Origin: Clostridia bacterium
GTDB lineage: Bacteria; Bacillota_A; Clostridia; TANB77; CAG-508
DNA length: 8,616 bases
Direction: 5' to 3'
Assembly: GCA_017621295.1 (NCBI GenBank)
Contig: JAGATI010000183.1
Location: forward strand, 1 to 8,616
In this document: one piece after another, positions 37 through 8,616 of the stretch
Numbering within the stretch: position 1 is the stretch's first letter
How the letters are laid out: each line of letters begins with the position of its first letter
Position numbers and translations under genes: made by a program
The notes under the pieces: model-generated
Databases searched by the model: none
Told to the model about the DNA's origin: nothing
Seen by the model: only the letters and a program-made list of their open reading frames with translations

Positions 37-1782
37 TTATCTTACACCACCAAACGTAGGATTTAATGTAAATTTTGTATGACCTCTATTATTTGATGGT
101 TTGTCATATTGAGGTTCATTGTCATTTCTTCCACCAACTATTAGAGCATTATGTGTTACACCATTACATTCTACTTGCTTTACATTTGGTCTTGGTTTTT
201 GATATTGATTTACTGGATGTTGATTCATATAGTCGGTGAGAACATTGTAAGTCTCAACACTATGATTCTTTGTCTTTGTCACTTTATTCTTACGTTCATT
301 AGCATGTGTACCAGCTCCATATATATTACCAAATGCCTTATCTGGAGATATTAGTCGCATAGAATTGTTTATAATGTCTTCTGAAGCATCTATTAATGCT
401 TTATAGTTTGTACTATAAGGATTGTAGAACAATTTATGATCTATAGCGTACTTTATAGCCTTTATACGGTTTTGTTGTGATCCATTAGATGCATAATATG
501 GAGATGTATGCTTCATTATTCTTTCTGCAATAGGATTCATATCATTCTCTCTCATTACATACATTGTCTCAAACCATGAATCTTTATCTTGATCCCATAA
601 GAATCCACCATTTTCAGAATACATAAACTTAAACCACTCATTTAAGTCTGTAACCATTGCCCTATTGTAGTTTATCTTTATCTTATTCTGTGCTAAATTG
701 AATGCTGTCTCATTATTAAGCTCATTTGGAATTGCTGTCATACTAGCAAGATCAAACTCACATTCGGAGAATGTAACCATTCTGAATGACATTCTGTCAC
801 CCATTTCATCAGCATGTAATGACTTATATGGAAAGCTTTTTGATGTTAATGACTTTCCTGCAGAATGATAGTATCTCAATGGTGTATGGAATATTACTAC
901 AGACATATCAAATTTTCGTAAGTTCTCTGGTAATATCTCCTTTTGCTTTATGTTGTCATAACATACATATCTATATAGATCCATTAATGTTGTCAATCTC
1001 ATATCAACAGCATCTTGTAAGCATTCTATTTCTATGAACTTCTCTTTTGTTATCTCATTTAAGTCTAAATATGATGCTTGATCCATGCCAGTTATCTTCT
1101 TAAAGAACCATGGTGCATATGAGTTTATCCAAGACAATGTCTTAACAAACTTTCTAAGTGCAACTTTTCTATTAAATGAACTGTTATAGTTATTTTCGTA
1201 TATATGAGATATATTGCTTAAATAGTTCATTGCAGAATTTTGTGTCATCATTCTAGTACCACCATTGTCAAGTATTCCTGGAAACAAACCATAATTAGTG
1301 TCAAATTTGAAAAATATCTTAAAATAGAACCATCCAGGCTCTCCAGTTAAGCTGTCTAATGACTTTTGCCATGATACTCGTTCATTTAAGAAGTCTTTAT
1401 ATCCCCATCGTGGAATTCCTATGCTAGTCTCAAATGCATCACCTTCATTATTAGCCATTATTCTGATATTCACGTCATCAGAATATGGATGGGAAACATC
1501 ATAGTTATTATGTATACCATCAGCGTTTTCTCTTAGACTAGTCTGCTTATTGTATACACCATCATATATAGTAGAGTTGAATGCTTTTCCACTAAGATTT
1601 TCATTAGAATCATCACCAAACAATTGTTCTCTATCAATATCAACTCTACCAGTACCTCCAGTACTGCCATATATCAAACCTGCAGTAGAATTTGCAGCAT
1701 TTATCAACGCATTATTGAAGTTTGGTACTGCATTATTGACTAATGTCTTAAAGTACTTATTTGCTACACTCTTTATGCTCAT
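37..1782 (-). CDS. tail tube / tail-tube-initiator-like structural protein (581 aa)
   Basis: This is probably a virion structural protein at the junction of baseplate and tail tube; the name rests on recalled resemblance and context. The middle of the protein (about residues 148-375) contains segments typical of large-phage tube-family proteins: an aromatic GWFYFKIFFKFD stretch (150-161), an acidic/hydrophobic strand ending FIEIECLQDAVDMRL (249-263), then LPENLRKFDMSVVIF (284-298) and FSECEFDLAS (338-347). Such proteins stack as beta-sandwich rings in T4-like and jumbo phage tails. The N-terminal 120 residues are polar and rich in Asn, and the C-terminal 90 residues (about 490-581) are Lys/Asn/Pro-rich and probably flexible. 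No signal peptide or membrane segment is seen. The ATG lies 3 bases after the stop of the 174-residue gene, with no Shine-Dalgarno sequence. T4 gp54/gp48-type tube initiator or a tube protein with extra domains are the main alternatives. Confidence 0.55.
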   Translation of the reverse strand: MSIKSVANKYFKTLVNNAVPNFNNALINAANSTAGLIYGSTGGTGRVDIDREQLFGDDSNENLSGKAFNSTIYDGVYNKQTSLRENADGIHNNYDVSHPYSDDVNIRIMANNEGDAFETSIGIPRWGYKDFLNERVSWQKSLDSLTGEPGWFYFKIFFKFDTNYGLFPGILDNGGTRMMTQNSAMNYLSNISHIYENNYNSSFNRKVALRKFVKTLSWINSYAPWFFKKITGMDQASYLDLNEITKEKFIEIECLQDAVDMRLTTLMDLYRYVCYDNIKQKEILPENLRKFDMSVVIFHTPLRYYHSAGKSLTSKSFPYKSLHADEMGDRMSFRMVTFSECEFDLASMTAIPNELNNETAFNLAQNKIKINYNRAMVTDLNEWFKFMYSENGGFLWDQDKDSWFETMYVMRENDMNPIAERIMKHTSPYYASNGSQQNRIKAIKYAIDHKLFYNPYSTNYKALIDASEDIINNSMRLISPDKAFGNIYGAGTHANERKNKVTKTKNHSVETYNVLTDYMNQHPVNQYQKPRPNVKQVECNGVTHNALIVGGRNDNEPQYDKPSNNRGHTKFTLNPTFGGVR

Positions 1783-1785
1783 TGC

Positions 1786-2310
1786 TTAATTATTGACATA
1801 TTGTTTTGCTTGTTCAGAAAATGTATTGTCATTTTCAAGAAAATCGGGTGACAATGGTGTTGTGTCATCTAACTTATTAAATGGTATCTTAAATTTAACA
1901 CCAGTAAGCTTACTTTGCATTTCAACTTCACCTGCAACATAATTGATGCTTATCACTCTTGCATCTATCATAGAATCATTATCTATATAAGTATATGTAT
2001 AGTTATCACCATATTTGTTTTGATATTTGCACCAATAAGAATCTAACCATACTTTATTTCTTCTATGTGGTGGCCGTTTTGATATTATGTTGACATATGA
2101 TGGTTGCCAGTATTCTGTATTCTTAATTTCTATAAAGTGATATGCTGACTTATATATATTAAGCTCTGGATGTTCTACTAAATATTTTTGTAAAGCATCT
2201 CTATATAGTTGATTATGGACCTTATCTGGTTTGTCTGCTATAAAGTCTGTAAATGATATTGGACCAGAATCATATAGCATCTTATCGTACCTCTTTATAT
2301 TCTCATTCAT
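1786..2310 (-). CDS. hypothetical baseplate-associated protein (174 aa)
   Basis: I do not recognise this protein. The N-terminal half (to about residue 70) looks helical and charged. The region of about 86-145 alternates hydrophobic and polar residues, including ARVISINYVAGEVEMQS, as expected for a small beta-barrel or OB/SH3-like fold. The C-terminal 25 residues are acidic and polar. There is no Cys cluster, signal peptide or membrane segment. It starts 2 bases after the stop of the hub-like gene and ends 3 bases before the tube-like gene, so the three are almost certainly co-transcribed and probably translationally coupled. A small structural adaptor of the baseplate is the natural guess from position, but nothing in the sequence proves it. 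Confidence 0.7.
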   Translation of the reverse strand: MNENIKRYDKMLYDSGPISFTDFIADKPDKVHNQLYRDALQKYLVEHPELNIYKSAYHFIEIKNTEYWQPSYVNIISKRPPHRRNKVWLDSYWCKYQNKYGDNYTYTYIDNDSMIDARVISINYVAGEVEMQSKLTGVKFKIPFNKLDDTTPLSPDFLENDNTFSEQAKQYVNN

Positions 2311-2312
2311 AA

Positions 2313-3974
2313 TTATTGATTAGCATACTTTGTTTCAGATACTCTATTTTGCATATTAGATATCATATCAGGAGCTTCTCCATCTTTTCTTATCAATATG
2401 AGATATTGAGTAAATTCTACATTTCTGGCATCGTATTCAAATATCATGCCATCTATGTAGTATATTCCAGTAACGAATGGATTCATTATAGGTTCTGTAT
2501 TGCTTACTACATTGTCATATAAGAAGTCAATATCTATAGAAGATTCTTCATTCTTATTTTCTTGATACAGGTTTTCAATTTGCCCCATTATCATGCGCTT
2601 CTTTTCAATAGAGAATTCCCACCAACTGAATCCTATCAATGTTCCTCTCATAAGCCCGTAGTTTGGCTTACCCATCTTAACCTTTATACGTTTTGCTCTA
2701 AGTCTTGAGAAATATTTGTCATGTATTCTTTGTTGGTGCATTTCAGGATAGTTGCCATCAGCAGCATTACCCATTTCTGCTCCTCGATATTCCATTTTCT
2801 CAAATGAATACATATCATTTCTCTTAACACCATCTACAGAATTTTCTACTGACTGTACTCCTTTAGTAGACATATTGTTTAGACCATCAGCAGCCCCCAT
2901 GGGATTCATATCAAAATATACATTGGTTGATCCATTCTTAATTATATAGTTGTTGTCAACCATATTCTCATATGAATCAACATATACATTAGTAGATACT
3001 GCTATCTTAAGATTAGATATCATTCTATGTGTAAGTGGTGTTGATGAATTTTCAGCTATATGTCTGTTTAGATTGCCCATACCAATTTCAGCATGCATAG
3101 CCATATTGCTGAAGTCAATCTTTCTGGTCATAAGCCATGGTACATTGACTAATGTTATATAACCATATAGATCAATCCATGTATCAAATATGTTGTCTTC
3201 ATCTGTTCCACCAAACCTTACATGTTTCTTTATGACATCTTTATATTTTTCAGACTTCAATATTCTATGTTTGTCATCTCTAACTGATGAGCACATATCT
3301 GTTGCAGCAAATCCAAGTCCTGTCTCTTCACCTATGACATGCAACAATTCATATGTGCTTGGATGTCTATTTGGTGGAAGTGGACAATCAGTTATGTTAT
3401 TGTTGACATCGGATATTCCAGTTGAATGATCTGCAGTACATCCAGGTGAGGGCCAATGAAATACTAATTGTTGTGTCTTTATCTTTTCAAGTGGCATTGA
3501 AGACAACTCACAATCACATATAATGAATTCTCCTCTATAACTGACATTCTTTATATAGAAAGTAAGCTTTATTGCTTTATATTTGTCATCAGCATGAGGA
3601 AGCATTGCTAATGTTATTCTATTAGCCATTCCAGGAACATCTGTTGTCTGCAACCAACCATCATCATCTCTAAGTATGAGATGAAGATATGGAACAAAGT
3701 CATCATAATACAATGTATATCTTTCAATCATATCATTCCGTATTACTGTATTGTTGAATAATAACACAGGTACCCACTTACCGTAATATCTTGTTGAATC
3801 CATATCATTATACATCTCTCCAATTCCAGGATCTTTAGATTCCTTAAGTGGTTCAGCAACAGGTGATGGTTCTGTCTTTGGATCAAATATCACCTTGATG
3901 TCAAACCAGTTCAAATCTGCAGCTGGCTTAAGATAGTCATCTTTCAATGTAGAATGTAAAAATGGACTTGGCAT
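2313..3974 (-). CDS. baseplate hub-like protein (gp27/gpD-like, 553 aa)
   Basis: This is likely the central hub of the baseplate, which connects the tail tube to the puncturing device. The order of segments resembles hub proteins of the T4 gp27 / phage late control gpD / VgrG type. There is an N-terminal beta domain (about 60-175). A segment STYELLHVIGEETGLGFAAT (206-225) is followed by a charged stretch and DTWIDLYGYITLVN (264-277), where hub proteins usually carry a second tube-like domain with an 'early-onset, glycine-rich' helix. The C-terminal part has KVKMGKPNYGLMRGTLIGF (431-449) and then VTGIYYIDGMIFEYD (501-515) and FTQYLILIRK (521-530), the usual closing beta-strands. Residues 300-420 look like an insertion with low-complexity Asn, Met and Gly. 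The start ATG is 32 bases downstream of the LysM gene, with an A/T-only leader and no Shine-Dalgarno sequence. The assignment comes from pattern recall; structure prediction would settle it. Confidence 0.6.
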   Translation of the reverse strand: MPSPFLHSTLKDDYLKPAADLNWFDIKVIFDPKTEPSPVAEPLKESKDPGIGEMYNDMDSTRYYGKWVPVLLFNNTVIRNDMIERYTLYYDDFVPYLHLILRDDDGWLQTTDVPGMANRITLAMLPHADDKYKAIKLTFYIKNVSYRGEFIICDCELSSMPLEKIKTQQLVFHWPSPGCTADHSTGISDVNNNITDCPLPPNRHPSTYELLHVIGEETGLGFAATDMCSSVRDDKHRILKSEKYKDVIKKHVRFGGTDEDNIFDTWIDLYGYITLVNVPWLMTRKIDFSNMAMHAEIGMGNLNRHIAENSSTPLTHRMISNLKIAVSTNVYVDSYENMVDNNYIIKNGSTNVYFDMNPMGAADGLNNMSTKGVQSVENSVDGVKRNDMYSFEKMEYRGAEMGNAADGNYPEMHQQRIHDKYFSRLRAKRIKVKMGKPNYGLMRGTLIGFSWWEFSIEKKRMIMGQIENLYQENKNEESSIDIDFLYDNVVSNTEPIMNPFVTGIYYIDGMIFEYDARNVEFTQYLILIRKDGEAPDMISNMQNRVSETKYANQ

Positions 3975-4006
3975 TAAAAATTATAATTTAAATATATATT
4001 ATATGA

Positions 4007-4486
4007 TTAATAGAATACTAAATGATTTGATCTATCTATAGTATAGTTGCTTTGACCAACTAACAACTCATTTGGAGAACGAGATTCATTCTTAAGTTTC
4101 TTATAAGCATCATTAGACATAGATTCTATAGTATCCTTTTCTCTTATTAGATCACTAGTAGAATCAGAAATACAATTGTCAACATATTGACCAACATCAT
4201 ATATGGATGGTATTAACAAAACATCTCCATAGTTAAGTTCAAATGGATTACTTATGTCATTTACTTTACATATAACATCTCCATAAATATCTGTTCCATA
4301 GAATGCAAATGATATCAAATCAGGTCTACCAATATAGTATTCTGACACTATACAATAGTCAAAATTGCTTATTGACATATTTTTGTTGTTAGATGCAAGC
4401 AAATCCTTACAATGTACTTCTGTATTGCCTTCTGCATTACTCTTAAGTACTATGGTGGGCTTTTTGCTTAATGTAAAGTAGTTCAT
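4007..4486 (-). CDS. LysM-domain baseplate protein (gp53-like, 159 aa)
   Basis: This protein has one LysM-like domain at about residues 48-94. It runs from SEYYIGRPDLISFAFYG, through an I-C-K-V-N-D segment, to NPFELNYGDVLLIPS. The order 'xxRPDxIxxxxYGxxxxxxxI...N..NPF.....GDxLxIP' is the form found in phage tail and baseplate LysM proteins such as T4 gp53, rather than in secreted peptidoglycan hydrolases. There is no signal peptide and no catalytic domain. The C-terminal third (about 105-135) is charged and probably helical. As the first gene after the hairpin at 4549-4578, it seems to open the baseplate block (LysM, hub, 174 aa, tube-like). The leader holds ATATATAAG 12 bases before the ATG and no Shine-Dalgarno sequence. 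A baseplate wedge role is inferred from the fold and position. Confidence 0.65.
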   Translation of the reverse strand: MNYFTLSKKPTIVLKSNAEGNTEVHCKDLLASNNKNMSISNFDYCIVSEYYIGRPDLISFAFYGTDIYGDVICKVNDISNPFELNYGDVLLIPSIYDVGQYVDNCISDSTSDLIREKDTIESMSNDAYKKLKNESRSPNELLVGQSNYTIDRSNHLVFY

Positions 4487-4498
4487 TTATATATGATG

Positions 4499-4507
4499 CT
4501 TATATAT
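4499..4507 (-). promoter_or_regulatory. possible promoter element ATATATAAG upstream of the LysM gene
   Basis: On the minus strand, ATATATAAG ends 12 bases before the ATG of the LysM gene. The same nine bases occur 11 bases before the ATG of the 265-residue Cys-rich gene (6958-6966). Both genes follow a gap rather than a tight coupling. The element resembles an A/T-rich -10 or a T4-type late promoter (TATAAATA). I found no convincing -35 box or Bacteroidota -33 TTTG partner, and such strings arise easily in A/T-rich spacers. Confidence 0.25.
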
Positions 4508-4548
4508 TGTTTGCTTTAGTTAAAAATAATTTGACCAATTAAACTAAC

Positions 4549-4578
4549 AAAGGAATGGTCAATTTTAACCATTCCTTT
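4549..4578 (-). terminator. terminator-like hairpin after the radical SAM gene
   Basis: There is a perfect 11-bp inverted repeat, AAAGGAATGGT at 4549-4559 and ACCATTCCTTT at 4568-4578, with an 8-base loop. It lies 24 bases past the TAG stop of the radical SAM gene in the direction of transcription. The base of the stem ends in UUU and is followed by a broken U-rich run (GUUAGUUUAAUU), so as an intrinsic terminator it is moderate rather than textbook. It is the most GC-rich short stretch in an otherwise A/T gap. It may separate the fibre/Cys-rich/maturase transcript from the baseplate block, or protect the 3' end of a processed mRNA. Confidence 0.65.
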
Positions 4579-4602
4579 AATATATTGATTTATATATGTT
4601 GT

Positions 4603-6072
4603 CTATCTATTAGATTCACAATTACATTTGCACTTTATTATAGGTTTAGACATATCATTGACATTACAGTCATTTAAATTACAACAATTGCCATTACAAT
4701 TTGGATTGTTTAGATTTGTCATATATGTATTGTACATTTGTATCAAACCAAGTGATATTCTATCATACTGATATTTCTTTTCCTCACCTCGACATATTCT
4801 AAATGATGGACAATTTGGAACTTTTAGACATGCAGGTTTAAGCTTACAGTTATTACACATGTCATTGTTCTGATCAACCTTTGTTTGCCAATGCTTAATA
4901 GAATCTAAATTTACTTCATCTGGCTTATCAAGACTACTAAAAAGCCATTTGTCATAATGATGTTCACAAACACCTATTCTTCCATCTGGATCAACGGTAA
5001 CACAATCATTTGAATCAATCATACAATGATGTGTCTGAATAGAACGGATGTCATTAGTAAAGAATCCAAAACCATTAGCATTAAGTATATGATTAATTTC
5101 GATCATCTTATTTGCTAATTCTTTAATTTGTTCAGGTGTTCTTTCATATCCGTTTATCTCAAATATCTGAAATATATATATAGATATACCTCTATTCTTT
5201 TCAAATTCAAACTCCTTACACAGATAATTGACCAACTCCTCCATATTTTCCATGTTATAGTTGTCAATATTAAGTCTTATATTTACTCTAATGCCAGCTC
5301 TTATTAAGTTATGAATGTTTGATATTACAGTGTTAAATGGACTTAAATCATCTTTATATATATATGACTTTGTCTTATTATATACCTTTTCAGTACCATC
5401 AAGAGTTATTTGAACACTTTCAAGATTCCATGAGTTTCTTGCTTTGTTGATAGTTTCTTGATCAAATAAATATCCGTTGCTTATCATACCAGCATTTACT
5501 CTTCTATTTGCACCTTTTACACGAGTAGTTATATAGTCTATAACATGTTGATTAAACAACGGTTCACCACCAAACCAGTCTAATCTTACAGTTTGTTGTT
5601 CAAAAGTATGATTGATGATATATTGTACAAGTTTTTCTGCAATCTCTATTGTCATGTGCTTCTTACCTTTTTTATTTAGTTCATAACAATAAAAACAACG
5701 AGCATTACATTTAAGTGTTGTAAATATAGTATATGCTGTAACCTTATCAAGATAATTTGGTGATACATATGTCAATGCTTTATTTCTATAAGTATCTACA
5801 ACATCATCCTCATTGAAATTGTCAGGTACAAGAAAATAATTTTCTATAAGCCATGATCTATAAAAACAATGATCAGAATTGTCTTTCAAATCATATTCTA
5901 TCTGACTAAATGCCCCAACTGCACCTGTTATGCAGTTATATAATAATTTAACATCATTAAAGTCACATTCAAATACATATTTGTTAAATCTATATTTCCA
6001 ATTCTTATTTTCTTTTTGCCAACCACCAAGAAAGCCTATTACTTTATCATCAGATTTTCTTATAATCTCCAT
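4603..6072 (-). CDS. radical SAM/SPASM peptide maturase-like enzyme (489 aa) with Cys-rich tail
   Basis: This is a radical SAM enzyme, probably acting on a Cys-rich protein. The SAM-binding cluster motif is CX3CX2C (C122, C126, C129). It is followed by WFGGEP (166-171), ISNG (197-200) and QITLDG (221-226), all standard barrel motifs. The C-terminal SPASM region has C350-X13-G-X4-C369 and then C406, C409, C415, C421 and C427, enough to bind two auxiliary 4Fe-4S clusters. Residues 1-110 resemble the N-terminal region of peptide maturases, where a RiPP-recognition fold often sits. The last 31 residues hold seven further cysteines (459-485), including CNGNCC, unlike the family. The ATG at 6072 is chosen because GAGGT lies 4 bases upstream; an in-frame TTG at 6132 would only add translated leader. 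The neighbours upstream are two Cys-rich repeat proteins, the likely substrates. Anaerobic sulfatase maturase is an alternative, but no sulfatase is present. Confidence 0.88.
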   Translation of the reverse strand: MEIIRKSDDKVIGFLGGWQKENKNWKYRFNKYVFECDFNDVKLLYNCITGAVGAFSQIEYDLKDNSDHCFYRSWLIENYFLVPDNFNEDDVVDTYRNKALTYVSPNYLDKVTAYTIFTTLKCNARCFYCYELNKKGKKHMTIEIAEKLVQYIINHTFEQQTVRLDWFGGEPLFNQHVIDYITTRVKGANRRVNAGMISNGYLFDQETINKARNSWNLESVQITLDGTEKVYNKTKSYIYKDDLSPFNTVISNIHNLIRAGIRVNIRLNIDNYNMENMEELVNYLCKEFEFEKNRGISIYIFQIFEINGYERTPEQIKELANKMIEINHILNANGFGFFTNDIRSIQTHHCMIDSNDCVTVDPDGRIGVCEHHYDKWLFSSLDKPDEVNLDSIKHWQTKVDQNNDMCNNCKLKPACLKVPNCPSFRICRGEEKKYQYDRISLGLIQMYNTYMTNLNNPNCNGNCCNLNDCNVNDMSKPIIKCKCNCESNR

Positions 6073-6076
6073 TTTT

Positions 6077-6081
6077 ACCTC
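6077..6081 (-). promoter_or_regulatory. Shine-Dalgarno GAGGT of the radical SAM gene
   Basis: The minus strand reads AGAGGTAAAAATG, with GAGGT 4 bases before the ATG at 6072. It is the only Shine-Dalgarno-like site I find before a gene in this window, and it decides the start of the maturase gene in favour of ATG at 6072 over the in-frame TTG at 6132. Confidence 0.55.
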
Positions 6082-6107
6082 TATATAGTATTTATTGTAT
6101 AAAATAT

Positions 6108-6142
6108 AGAAATATAGCTGATAAAATTTCAACTATATTTCT
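6108..6142 (-). terminator. hairpin between Cys-rich gene and maturase gene, possible attenuator
   Basis: An inverted repeat of 14 bp spans 6108-6121 and 6129-6142 with a 7-base loop. Its single mismatch is a G-U wobble in RNA made from the minus strand and a C-A mismatch in RNA from the other strand, so the stem is better in the direction of the genes. The transcript continues into AUAUUUUAUACAAU, a U-rich run. It sits 6 bases after the stop of the 265-residue gene and 35 bases before the maturase ATG. Partial termination or 3'-end protection here would give more Cys-rich protein than enzyme. The stem is mostly A-U, so termination may be weak. Confidence 0.5.
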
Positions 6143-6148
6143 CATATG

Positions 6149-6946
6149 TTATGATGGATAATATACATTTACTGTTGCACAATGTCCAGGGCATCCAGTA
6201 GTATTTCCATTATGCAAACAATTTGACAAACACTCTTTATTGCATGTACATTCATTATATCTATAGCAACTACAATTAGATCCATTACATGGACATGCAG
6301 ATTGTCCATGACAATTCCAACTACAATTATAGTTGTATTTTGAACATGATGATTGTGAATAGCAATTCCAACTACAACTATAGTCATATTTAGAACAAGA
6401 TGATTGCGAATAACATTCCCAATTACATCCATTGCCTGTGCATGATGATTGTCCATGACAATAATTATCACATGTTTGTCCATATGTTGAACAATTATAT
6501 GCTGATGAACAATTACCACAATTATTTGTTGTACATCCAGAACTTGTTTGACTATAACATCCATTTTGTACACTTGAACAATTACCTGTACATGATGATT
6601 GCCCATGACATTGACCATTACATTCAGAACTGCAACCTGGTGATGATTGTCCATGACATTGGCCGGCACAGGTTTGCCCATTAGTATTACATGCACCTTG
6701 TCCATGACATTGACCATTACAACCAGTTACTGATTGTCCATGACATTGACTAGAACAAGTTTGTCCATGTGTTGAACAGTTATATGCAGATGCACAGTTG
6801 CCACAATTATTTGTTGTACAACTACCAGATTGACTATAACATCCATTTTGTACACTAGAACAATTAGATGAACAAGCTGATTGTCCAGTACATTTATTAG
6901 TTATATTAGATTGTCCTTTATTGCAAGTACATTGACAACATGCCAT
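6149..6946 (-). CDS. Cys-rich repeat protein 2, C[HY][GS]Q repeats (265 aa, 50 Cys)
   Basis: Nearly one residue in five is Cys (50 of 265); the rest is mostly Gly, Ser, Asn, Gln, Thr and Tyr, with very few charged or aliphatic residues. The core motif is C-X3-C-[HY]-[GS]-Q, followed by a Cys three to five residues later. Six CHGQ and four CYSQ units are present. Residues 28-64 and 122-159 are near-identical copies, and 178-194 and 195-211 form a tandem pair of 17 residues. The protein starts straight into Cys (MACCQCTC), so there is no signal or obvious leader peptide, and it ends in a Cys-free YYPS tail. It lies 29 bases after Cys-rich protein 1 and 76 bases before the radical SAM gene. I infer a cross-linked appendage or adhesin component and a maturase substrate. 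Metal binding or plain disulfides are alternatives. No named family is recognised. Confidence 0.85.
   Translation of the reverse strand: MACCQCTCNKGQSNITNKCTGQSACSSNCSSVQNGCYSQSGSCTTNNCGNCASAYNCSTHGQTCSSQCHGQSVTGCNGQCHGQGACNTNGQTCAGQCHGQSSPGCSSECNGQCHGQSSCTGNCSSVQNGCYSQTSSGCTTNNCGNCSSAYNCSTYGQTCDNYCHGQSSCTGNGCNWECYSQSSCSKYDYSCSWNCYSQSSCSKYNYNCSWNCHGQSACPCNGSNCSCYRYNECTCNKECLSNCLHNGNTTGCPGHCATVNVYYPS
6314..6415 (-). repeat. tandem 51-bp repeat, two copies
   Basis: Copies lie at 6314-6364 and 6365-6415 and encode CYSQSSCSKY followed by [DN]Y[SN]CSWN in Cys-rich protein 2 (residues 195-211 and 178-194). They differ at only a few bases. The 51-bp length equals the 17-residue period of Cys-rich protein 1, although the cysteine pattern differs. 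Confidence 0.85.
6470..6865 (-). repeat. long duplicated block within Cys-rich protein 2 (6755-6865 and 6470-6583)
   Basis: Two blocks of 111 and 114 bases encode residues 28-64 and 122-159, both running from NCSSVQNGCYSQ to GQTC. The DNA is closely matched as well as the protein, and the copies differ by small substitutions and one extra codon near the Ser/Gly stretch. The intervening 57 residues are shorter CHGQ units. This indicates growth by block duplication, later diverged. Confidence 0.8.
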
Positions 6947-6957
6947 AATTTGGTTAA

Positions 6958-6966
6958 CTTATATAT
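6958..6966 (-). promoter_or_regulatory. possible promoter element ATATATAAG upstream of Cys-rich gene 2
   Basis: ATATATAAG on the minus strand ends 11 bases before the ATG at 6946. It is identical in sequence, and nearly in spacing, to the element before the LysM gene. The 29-base gap also includes GTTAAC and no Shine-Dalgarno sequence. It is weak evidence on its own. Confidence 0.25.
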
Positions 6967-6975
6967 ATTATACTT

Positions 6976-7911
6976 TTATTCTATTCCACCACATTCATAG
7001 TTAGATGTACACCATGTACCAACTTCTGTGCATCCATTAGTAGTACATGTTTGTGGCTTACATTGATCTGTACATCCATTAGCATCACATGTTGATACAT
7101 TATTATTGCAACTACATTGTCCACATCCATTTGTTGAACAACTGTCTGTTTGTGAATAACATTGTCCTGTACATGTTGTTTGCCCATAGCAACTGCATTG
7201 TCCGCAACCATTTGTTGAACATGATGACTGGTTGTTACATGAACATTGCCCACAACCATGTGTTGAACATGATGTTGATTGTCCATAGCAACTACATTGT
7301 CCACAACCATTTGTTGAACAAGATCCTACTTGATTATTACATGTACATTGTCCACAACCATTTGTTGAACATGATGTTGATTCTCCATAGCAACTACATT
7401 GTCCACAACCATTTGTATTACATGGATCTCCTATTTGACTGTAACAATATCCTGAACAATCTGTTTGTCCATAGCAACCACACTCACCACAACCATTTTC
7501 AGAACAATTACTAGTATCATCATTACAGCTACACTCACCACAACCATATGATGAGCATGAACTTGTATGTCCATAACAGTTACATTCTCCACAATTATAG
7601 TCAGAGCATGAACTTGTATGTCCATAACAGTTACATTCTCCACAATTATGTGATGAACAACTATAGTCTTCACCACTATAACAGTTATTGCATGTACATG
7701 ATGTTCTTCTAGCTTCATGATTTCTATATACATCCCTAGCTCTAACAAGTTGATTAGAAGCATATGTCTCTAAATCTTTCCTGATAGAACATCCTGTAGA
7801 TTCAATCTGAGTTCTAGATGGACATAGATTGTCAACTATTCCATAGTTGTTAGATGAACAACCTGCCCAAGCTTTAACTGTTTTAGAAGTTACAACTATA
7901 TAATCTGCCAT
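6976..7911 (-). CDS. Cys-rich repeat protein 1, CX4CX2CXCX6 repeats (311 aa, 57 Cys)
   Basis: This protein has two parts. Residues 1-70 form a normal-looking domain with only three Cys; its segment CPSRTQIESTG (30-40) and YASNQLVRARDV (50-61) resemble a short module I associate with structural or adhesin proteins of Bacteroidota phages (recall, unverified). It could dock the protein to the virion or serve as a leader for the maturase. Residues 72-307 hold 54 Cys in a 17-residue repeat, CX4CX2CXCX6, with CG[EQ]C recurring at residues 90, 107, 124, 141, 169, 186, 203, 220, 236 and 263. Two 11-residue CX3CYSQ insertions (about 152-163 and 247-257) resemble units of Cys-rich protein 2. The gene starts 12 bases after the fibre gene, without a Shine-Dalgarno sequence, so it is probably on the fibre transcript. 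I infer a virion appendage protein and a substrate of the radical SAM enzyme. The function is otherwise unknown. Confidence 0.85.
   Translation of the reverse strand: MADYIVVTSKTVKAWAGCSSNNYGIVDNLCPSRTQIESTGCSIRKDLETYASNQLVRARDVYRNHEARRTSCTCNNCYSGEDYSCSSHNCGECNCYGHTSSCSDYNCGECNCYGHTSSCSSYGCGECSCNDDTSNCSENGCGECGCYGQTDCSGYCYSQIGDPCNTNGCGQCSCYGESTSCSTNGCGQCTCNNQVGSCSTNGCGQCSCYGQSTSCSTHGCGQCSCNNQSSCSTNGCGQCSCYGQTTCTGQCYSQTDSCSTNGCGQCSCNNNVSTCDANGCTDQCKPQTCTTNGCTEVGTWCTSNYECGGIE
7090..7659 (-). repeat. array of 51-bp repeats within Cys-rich protein 1
   Basis: About ten units encode residues 85-274. Unit spacing, counted at CG[EQ]C, is 17 residues, with one of 16 and two of 27 to 28 where CYSQ pieces are inserted. 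From residue 169 on, the units alternate between CYG[EQ] and CNNQ/CNNN types, giving a 102-bp higher-order period. Synonymous sites are shared between copies, for example the TGC codon before TAT in most CYG units, which indicates recent amplification. Confidence 0.85.
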
Positions 7912-7923
7912 ATATTAAAAATA

Positions 7924-8616
7924 TTATTTCTTTTCTAATAGTAGCCTTTCAAGTCTATCAATTTTGTCTTTTAGATTCTTTATTTCTCTACATGCTATAA
8001 TACCAGCTACAGTACCAAGAGTTGCATAGTCAAGTGACTTAATACCTTCATTGTCTTCTGTTATCAAATTAGGCAATATCTTTTCAACTGCCTGTGCGGA
8101 AGAACCAGTACGTGTAGTTTTTGATTCATCTAACTTCCAAGTATAGTCAAATATTGGTAATTCAGCAATTTCATCTAATGTAGTTCTACAATCATCTATA
8201 ATGTCCTTATAGTTTATGTCTGATGATATGTACCATGCAGGTGCTGTTTGATTACCCGAGAATGTATTAGCAGAATTTGTTAGAGCTATATTATTGAGAT
8301 ATACATTAGATGCTGTAGACTTATTGGCAGTAAAGTCACATAAGTCTTGTGTTCCATTTGTTGATGTATTGCTTATATATATATTAAGAGCTCCATTATT
8401 TGGTGCAGTTGGATTTGCCCTACTTACAGTTATTTTATGATCACTTACAGATATACCTGTCATAAACGTACCAGTTCCAGTATCTGATATACTAAGTCCA
8501 GGTGTGTATATGTCTGTTACCTGATATGTTATCTTACCGTTTGCAGCTTGGGTTATGCCTGTCACAAATCTATGTCCCTTAGTAGAATCTTCACTCAATT
8601 CAGTTGCTCCATCACC
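7924..8616 (-). CDS. tail fibre/appendage protein with peptidase S74 chaperone domain, 5' end outside the window
   Basis: The last 230 residues of a fibre or spike protein are visible; the frame is open to the window edge, so the true start is outside. The first part has beta-rich fibre repeats: FVTGITQAANGKITYQVT (visible residues 17-34) and FMTGISVSDHKITVSRA (51-67). The final ~100 residues match the S74 intramolecular chaperone domain: SSDINYKDII with a Ser-X4-Lys pair (S132, K137) as the likely self-cleavage dyad, GSSAQAVEKILPNLI (171-185), LDYATLG (195-201) and a C-terminal coiled coil. In this family the domain drives trimer folding and is then cut off just before the Ser. The following Cys-rich gene is only 12 bases away. 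Host receptor binding is the likely role; the receptor cannot be told from this part. Confidence 0.85.
   Translation of the reverse strand, partial: GDGATELSEDSTKGHRFVTGITQAANGKITYQVTDIYTPGLSISDTGTGTFMTGISVSDHKITVSRANPTAPNNGALNIYISNTSTNGTQDLCDFTANKSTASNVYLNNIALTNSANTFSGNQTAPAWYISSDINYKDIIDDCRTTLDEIAELPIFDYTWKLDESKTTRTGSSAQAVEKILPNLITEDNEGIKSLDYATLGTVAGIIACREIKNLKDKIDRLERLLLEKK

Follow-up and report, generated by a model that had tools for sequence, protein, structure and literature searches.

Cysteine-rich proteins and a radical SAM/SPASM enzyme in the window

The window studied here, the whole 8,616-nt stretch of contig JAGATI010000183.1 from a Clostridia bacterium, carries on its minus strand the gene of a radical S-adenosylmethionine (SAM)/SPASM enzyme directly downstream of two genes for cysteine-rich repeat proteins, among phage tail genes. 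The gene pairing, the conservation of the cysteines and the predicted fold were all observed, and on this basis phage SPASM maturases probably cross-link ladders of cysteines on tail proteins; the window enzyme would join Cys to neighbouring residues by thioether bonds, giving a permanently cross-linked tail part. With somewhat less assurance, this may be a general and undescribed way of building virions, in which several tailed-phage lineages encode radical SAM/SPASM enzymes that weld the Cys-ladder domains of tail fibres, Tal and baseplate-linked proteins into non-reducible thioether structures, in at least two enzyme clades separately and in cultured phages such as SPN3US. It would then be the first maturation of the type known from ribosomally synthesized and post-translationally modified peptides (RiPPs) to yield a virus particle. 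The enzymes themselves are of a known kind. To our knowledge, such maturation has so far been known for small peptides, and among the matches listed in searches of the open-access literature, with subscription journals and preprints outside the scope, there was no description of enzymes of this kind acting on virion proteins.

Eight open reading frames (ORFs) of interest follow one another in the same orientation along the minus strand, and reading them bore out the coordinates of the original prediction. Both Cys-rich genes, coding for predicted cross-linking substrates, stand directly upstream of the enzyme gene on the same strand. Repeat protein 1 (6976..7911, minus strand) has 57 Cys in 311 aa and repeat protein 2 (6149..6946, minus strand) has 50 Cys in 265 aa, and these counts hold as predicted. 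About every fifth to sixth residue is Cys in both; the Cys share in five other measured ORFs of the window was 0.6-2.5%. The densest 40 residues contain 11 Cys in the 311-aa protein and 10 Cys in the 265-aa protein, and at least 6 Cys in 40 residues was found in 0/638 plus-strand ORFs of 78 control tail loci.

The 311-aa protein is built of an N-terminal part of about 75 residues followed by C-x4-C-x2-C-x-C units. The spacing C-x4-C-x2-C occurs 10 times in it (2000 shuffles: mean 1.8, maximum 7) and 2 times in the 265-aa protein (shuffles: mean 1.6, maximum 6). Since the second count is within the shuffle range, the spacing is special to the 311-aa protein; the 265-aa protein is Cys-dense without its regular units, with Cys already from residue 3. 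Lys and Arg are absent from the 311-aa protein between residues 69 and 285. Its sole homologue in a protein database search was P0121 (233 aa, E 4.4e-4), the N-terminal part and the Cys repeats being common to both, while searches with it gave 0 viral contigs and 0 phage records. No match to the 265-aa protein was found in phage records; the large protein database was not searched with it. DNA patterns for the Cys spacing (at least 30 ORFs with spaced motifs, 208 loci) were dropped, as the matches listed were almost all low-complexity or antisense frames.

The enzyme ORF (4603-6132) opens at TTG (509 aa). From the first ATG, at 6072, the gene (4603..6072, minus strand) encodes 489 aa, as many as the identical protein P0001 has in the database, and the product matches PF04055 with 49.3 bits. 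The CX3CX2C and SPASM cysteines were found intact, as predicted. The radical SAM motif corresponds to C122-C126-C129 in ATG numbering and is invariant in 23/23 aligned sequences, as are C350, C369, C406, C409, C415, C421 and C427. The pattern of these seven cysteines and the CteB alignment (residues 30-450) suggest that they are the SPASM ligands.

Relatives among phage structural genes

A search of IMG/VR with the single enzyme sequence gave no match, and a search with the enzyme alignment gave 22 loci, 15 of which were judged phage structural-gene loci (L002-L005, L007-L013, L016-L019). The standard code was used for reading, except that TAG was taken as Q in L010 and L016, and TGA as W in L002. 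A Cys-rich neighbour was defined as a gene ending at most 1 kb upstream of the enzyme gene and having at least 6 Cys in 40 residues. Such a neighbour was present in 14/15 structural loci (also 14 over all 22 loci), and the same density was reached by 1/170 of the other plus-strand ORFs of these 15 loci. Comparison between phages gives strong support to the original claim of an association between the enzyme and the Cys-rich proteins, and of both with the tail. A second IMG/VR scan with an alignment of siphophage enzymes, planned as a prospective test, yielded besides known contigs 14 distant loci, 0/14 with a Cys-rich neighbour; because it gave no new positives, it served as a negative set.

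The Cys region forms the end of a protein of 650 to 2950 residues in L005, L007-L013, L017, L010, L025 and L002, and several of these are tail proteins. Giant separate substrates, as originally proposed, would be one form among others, the Cys domain in other phages being the C-terminal end of a tail protein. For the Tal-type loci (L005, L007-L009, L011-L013, L017) the tail assignment is firm: seven aligned as one family with 47-63% identity to L012, which belongs to PF06605, and the gene order is tape measure, Dit-like protein, Tal with Cys tail and enzyme, with the tape measure and Dit named by position and size. It is weaker for L003, L018 and L019, where the matches were Gp58-like below cut-off and minor-head, tail or internal-virion PHROGs.

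With TGA=W, L002 encodes a protein of at least 2950 aa with a C-terminal Cys domain, and P0123, a relative of this domain, is located on a 384-kb contig. The same giant fibre-like protein (225-5960) has a Pfam match to CDtoxinA (PF03498, 26.1 bits), probably a lectin-like domain. Past the 96-aa ORF of L016 (upstream of 10001), and separated from it by one stop codon, the same frame continues into another Cys-rich stretch that lacks a usual start codon.

Comparison of Tal proteins with and without the enzyme

In the best 80 of 550 confirmed Tal homologues, the last 120 residues were examined for Cys and the downstream DNA for an enzyme gene. A Cys tail was found in 2/80 (L312 and L329), and the same two alone had the enzyme. 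The remaining 78 had at most 3 Cys in 40 residues and no enzyme, and several end in Asp/Gly/Ser-rich sequence. When the loci found first by their enzyme were included, at least 6 Cys were present in 7/8 Tal loci with the enzyme versus 0/78 without it (Fisher 1.5e-9, a descriptive value, the loci being related and the Cys cut-off having been chosen after the data were seen). The Tal/Prophage_tail family (PF06605), to which L012 and its relatives belong, has homologues in Enterococcus, Streptococcus and Listeria phages; its members without the enzyme differ in that the Cys tail is absent (0/78). The original prediction had named, as evidence that would speak against it, Cys-rich genes routinely lacking the enzyme, and these did not occur in this one countable family.

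Relatives in species genomes and altered genetic codes

Relatives of the enzyme are encoded at 402 places in 85 thousand species genomes, and the best 80 of the 402 were read. Two of these, L024 and L025, are phage-like contigs in or beside the enzyme clade of the window. Read with TAG=Q, L025 encodes an 825-aa protein with 121 Cys, which starts with BACON domains and ends at the enzyme gene. L024 opens within a frame rich in Cys, with 10 among 35 residues, about 45 codons ahead of its first enzyme gene, and its second enzyme gene contains 9 in-frame TAG. No such Cys-rich protein was found in the other 78 of the best 80 with the standard code or TAG=Q, save a doubtful 46-aa ORF at L078; with the standard code alone the Cys filter was passed by L025 and L078 only. 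The L078 ORF lies downstream and was not believed, and nine more loci with Cys-rich frames under TGA=W were not counted, as they resemble out-of-frame GC-rich DNA.

In-frame stop codons were noted in enzyme or fibre genes of L010, L016, L024 and L025 (TAG only) and of L002 (TGA only). Judged from these stops, a non-standard genetic code appears to be in use in these phages and would hide the Cys domains from standard gene calls. Tandem enzyme genes were also seen, two each in L024 and L025, and in SPN3US-like phages two different radical SAM genes adjoin each other.

A second enzyme clade in SPN3US-type jumbo phages

With the L012 enzyme as query, matches of 24% identity were obtained in SPN3US-like jumbo phages. 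SPN3US, SPAsTU, Kwan, Caitlin, Phobos, Derbicus and phiEaH2 were read, that is 7 of the 63 records with match coverage of at least 80%. In 7/7 phages two proteins of 127-157 aa with 20-23 Cys are encoded just past the baseplate/fibre genes, and two radical SAM genes follow them. The Cys gaps in these proteins were x3 (232), x2 (42) and x7 (4). One such Cys protein (22 Cys), upstream of the enzyme, was also found in the human-gut phage scaffold L433. No Cys-rich neighbour was seen in L392-L394, which comprise gut scaffolds and Enterococcus phage IME_EF3 and match the enzyme at 24-25%.

The best NCBIfam match of the SPN3US enzyme was TIGR04115, with 125.6 bits under a cut-off of 350. Against the TIGR04114 target repeat (cut-off 20), four of eight phage Cys proteins scored above the cut-off (21.3, 25.6, 24.4 and 23.7), three just below (19.6, 18.9 and 17.8) and one had no match. 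TIGR04115 and TIGR04114 are the enzyme and target of the CXXX-repeat system, so that the two sets of sequence matches would form an independent link between enzyme and substrate type. SPN3US-type loci differ from that system in carrying two enzymes and in having the targets among virion tail genes.

The first Cys protein was found in 69 phage records (34 Erwinia, 32 Salmonella and three others), and the jumbo-clade enzyme, compared with it by genus count, in 34 Erwinia and 29 Salmonella records, among others. Differences between SPN3US and SPAsTU at codon positions 1, 2 and 3 numbered 14, 8, 68 and 14, 10, 73, and Cys was kept 125/125 over six partly overlapping between-species comparisons. 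Because third-position changes dominate and all 125 Cys were kept, the frames are real and the cysteines matter. The original rationale, that links not depending on disulfides would suit an anaerobic gut, fails to generalise, since Salmonella and Erwinia jumbo phages show the same pairing.

In several records the Cys ORF has no annotated coding sequence, or has one on the other strand; in SPN3US an ORF of 130 aa lacks annotation. Cys-repeat ORFs missed by annotation were noted at L395 2091-2483, at L430 1635-2456 and in L432. Furthermore, proteins without a Pfam match are encoded between the Cys genes and the enzymes (L395 3143-4030, L433 5032-5640) and are candidate partner proteins.

According to published work, SPN3US gp168-gp170 are virion proteins and candidates for baseplate or tail fibre, with gp168 essential (PMC5694885) and resembling phiKZ gp131 at the baseplate rim (PMC5105663); the list of SPN3US virion proteins comprises 86. 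In the main texts of the SPN3US papers searched, gp166 (the Cys protein that is annotated), gp165 and gp167 are not named, and of the radical SAM proteins gp163 and gp164 the first is not named in the main text of PMC5105663 and the second not in that of PMC10052503.

Fold, related families and proposed mechanism

The AlphaFold2 model of the window enzyme had a predicted local distance difference test (pLDDT) score of 84.3, with residues 459-489 below 50. These residues form a Cys-rich disordered C-terminal tail on the enzyme itself, seen in 66/122 members of the window's clade (P0001-P0120); it is perhaps a substrate mimic or a self-modified part. CteB (PDB 5wgg/5why) was the nearest solved relative by sequence (E 3.5e-18, 17% identity), and CteB and TigE were the best solved matches in the full-length comparison of predicted folds, with CteB closest. 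The N-terminal region, considered as a candidate precursor-recognition (RRE) domain and compared within the whole model, has strands at 27-56 and then three helices, with pLDDT mostly >90; the alignments begin at residue 30 for CteB and at residue 23 for TigE. The structure report of CteB is titled as thioether formation in sactipeptide biosynthesis, and CteB is bacterial, unlike the phage enzyme.

The NCBIfam scores of the window enzyme (bits/cut-off) were 128/525 for TIGR04463, 121.2/600 for CefB, 115/600 for Clo7bot, 80.3/340 for PapB, 72.1/350 for TIGR04115 and 52.1/425 for SCIFF TIGR03974. Maturases of TIGR04463, CefB, Clo7bot and PapB have the same motifs and an adjoining Cys-rich partner, as the window enzyme does. 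The latter is far under their cut-offs, and its partners are proteins of 265 and 311 aa or the ends of tail proteins, in phages. SCIFF peptides have six Cys in about 45 residues, compared with 57 in 311 aa and 50 in 265 aa in the window. The substrate motif of PapB ranthipeptides, C-x3-D/E according to PMC9413430, is rare here, with 3/57 Cys in the 311-aa protein and 1/50 in the 265-aa protein.

The proposed mechanism starts from the observation, here and in other phages, that the enzyme and a Cys-rich protein are encoded by neighbouring genes, the Cys part being either a protein of its own or the C-terminus of a tail protein. The enzyme's N-terminal domain (about residues 1-105) would be the recognition element, as modelled on CteB. 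By analogy with the enzyme families, a 5'-deoxyadenosyl radical would take a hydrogen from a residue near a Cys, the thiol would close the thioether, and the step would be repeated along the ladder. The ladder would then be built into the tail fibre, tip or baseplate, as the gene positions and tail-protein fusions suggest, and may confer stiffness or chemical resistance. From these comparisons we infer the thioether type of the bonds, their number, when the enzyme acts and where in the virion the linked part sits. The partner may be an alpha or another carbon, the PapB motif being rare in the window and the spacing varying between phages.

Alternative explanations

It is unlikely that the enzyme modifies the Cys-rich proteins in another way, such as epimerisation or a change on Ser, Thr or Asn, while the cysteines are paired in disulfides or coordinate metal, in the manner of metallothioneins or metal-tipped tail spikes. 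The fold matches to CteB and TigE argue against another modification, as do the best curated families, all of them maturases of Cys-rich peptides (TIGR04463, CefB, Clo7bot, PapB, TIGR04115). A fixed metal site would keep its spacing constant, and the Cys spacing varies by phage, mostly x3 in the jumbo phages and mixed in the window.

We consider it less likely still that the phage encodes the Cys-rich proteins as RiPP precursors, to be cleaved and set free as bacteriocins, signals or host-modifying peptides rather than built into the virion. Small peptides are the usual product of the enzyme superfamily, and many chromosomal relatives adjoin short Cys peptides like ordinary RiPP loci (several among the places read, e.g. 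L071, L090 and L100). Furthermore, the SPN3US-like Cys proteins carry an N-terminal part of 45-50 residues before the first Cys. Against such release stands the position of the Cys region at the end of very long proteins, several of which are tail proteins. In the window no gene for a transporter or a leader peptidase was noticed, and the other loci were not searched for these.

A chance placement of an ordinary radical SAM gene, with an auxiliary metabolic or a regulatory role, beside Cys-rich tail genes is very improbable in view of the neighbour counts (14/15 vs 1/170) and of the pairing found again in a second enzyme clade; the phage radical SAM genes without Cys-rich neighbours, in Vibrio KVP40, Campylobacter CP220 and the 14 distant IMG/VR loci, are of other families.

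Several observations weigh against cross-linking of Cys ladders by these enzymes, or limit the counts that favour it. The window enzyme passes no NCBIfam equivalog cut-off, with a best score of 128 of 525 bits, and over residues 110-450 structures of anSME, which are not RiPP maturases, match the score of CteB. The 265-aa protein is without a leader-like part. The exception among the 15 structural loci, L008, has a Cys tail that peaks at 4 Cys in 40 residues, and in L021 the contig end cuts the enzyme and the adjoining tail-protein end has only 2 Cys. L002, L004, L010 and L016 matched no tail family, save fn3 in L004, and were called tail by reading alone. The locus counts are not independent, as contigs are related, and the two Tal positives are themselves contigs of L012 and L017, found earlier by the enzyme search. 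Eight of the 78 Tal negatives end at a contig edge, and 57/78 have at least 1 kb downstream. Lastly, the records of L124 and L194 (31.7 kb and 6 kb) had no radical SAM family match. On their minus strands these encode another kind of giant Cys-rich viral protein, 860 aa with 141 Cys at L124 1392-3974 and 390 aa with 158 Cys, cut, at L194 1-1172.

At the locus end of L021 (3817-4537) the cut enzyme gene adjoins a 431-aa protein that ends in Asp/Ser/Gly repeats, with the last residues CGPGDGL as in the Cys tail of L011; the Cys ladder of this protein was likely lost or replaced.

Flanking genes of the window

As had been predicted, the trio is set between a fibre gene and a baseplate gene, all on the minus strand. 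Upstream, the tail-fibre gene (7924..8616, 5' end beyond the window) encodes in its C-terminal part an S74 (chaperone of endosialidase) domain (PF13884, 35.8 bits) and matches PHROG tail-fibre families, best phrog_5668 (2.7e-15). From the fibre stop to the start of the 311-aa gene are 12 nt, from the 311-aa gene to the 265-aa gene 29 nt, and from the 265-aa gene to the enzyme ATG 76 nt. Downstream follows a 159-aa gp25/baseplate-wedge-like protein (4007..4486; phrog_15542 'tail sheath' 1.4e-8, phrog_7145 'baseplate wedge subunit' 1.2e-5). Three larger ORFs make up the further context. Among them, a 553-aa ORF (2313..3974; phrog_35886, a family of unknown function, 5.8e-4) is probably structural, and a 581-aa ORF (37..1782) has relatives in the jumbo phages PTm1, PAU and Lak, with tblastn matches in 25 records that reach 25-28% identity and span 32-42% of the query.

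Implications for phage biology

Phage radical SAM genes have been annotated, for example, as related to quorum sensing or DNA repair; the reports describe one such gene (gp_34) in Parabacteroides phage phiPDS1 and six in Pseudomonas phage pPa_SNUABM_DT01 (PMC10773633, PMC8541153). If the cross-linking is real, standard virion proteomics would be blind to Cys ladders, because the Cys region has few or no Lys and Arg and because, in one SPN3US study, Cys carbamidomethylation was set as fixed (PMC10052503).

If the proposed cross-linking holds, phages would join their structural proteins by radical chemistry, and a class of uncharacterised phage radical SAM genes would be accounted for. It would also reveal Cys-ladder genes missed by annotation, none being listed under the SPN3US match, and would offer enzymology and protein engineering a new kind of very large substrate. 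As SPN3US is a cultured phage, this reading is testable now.

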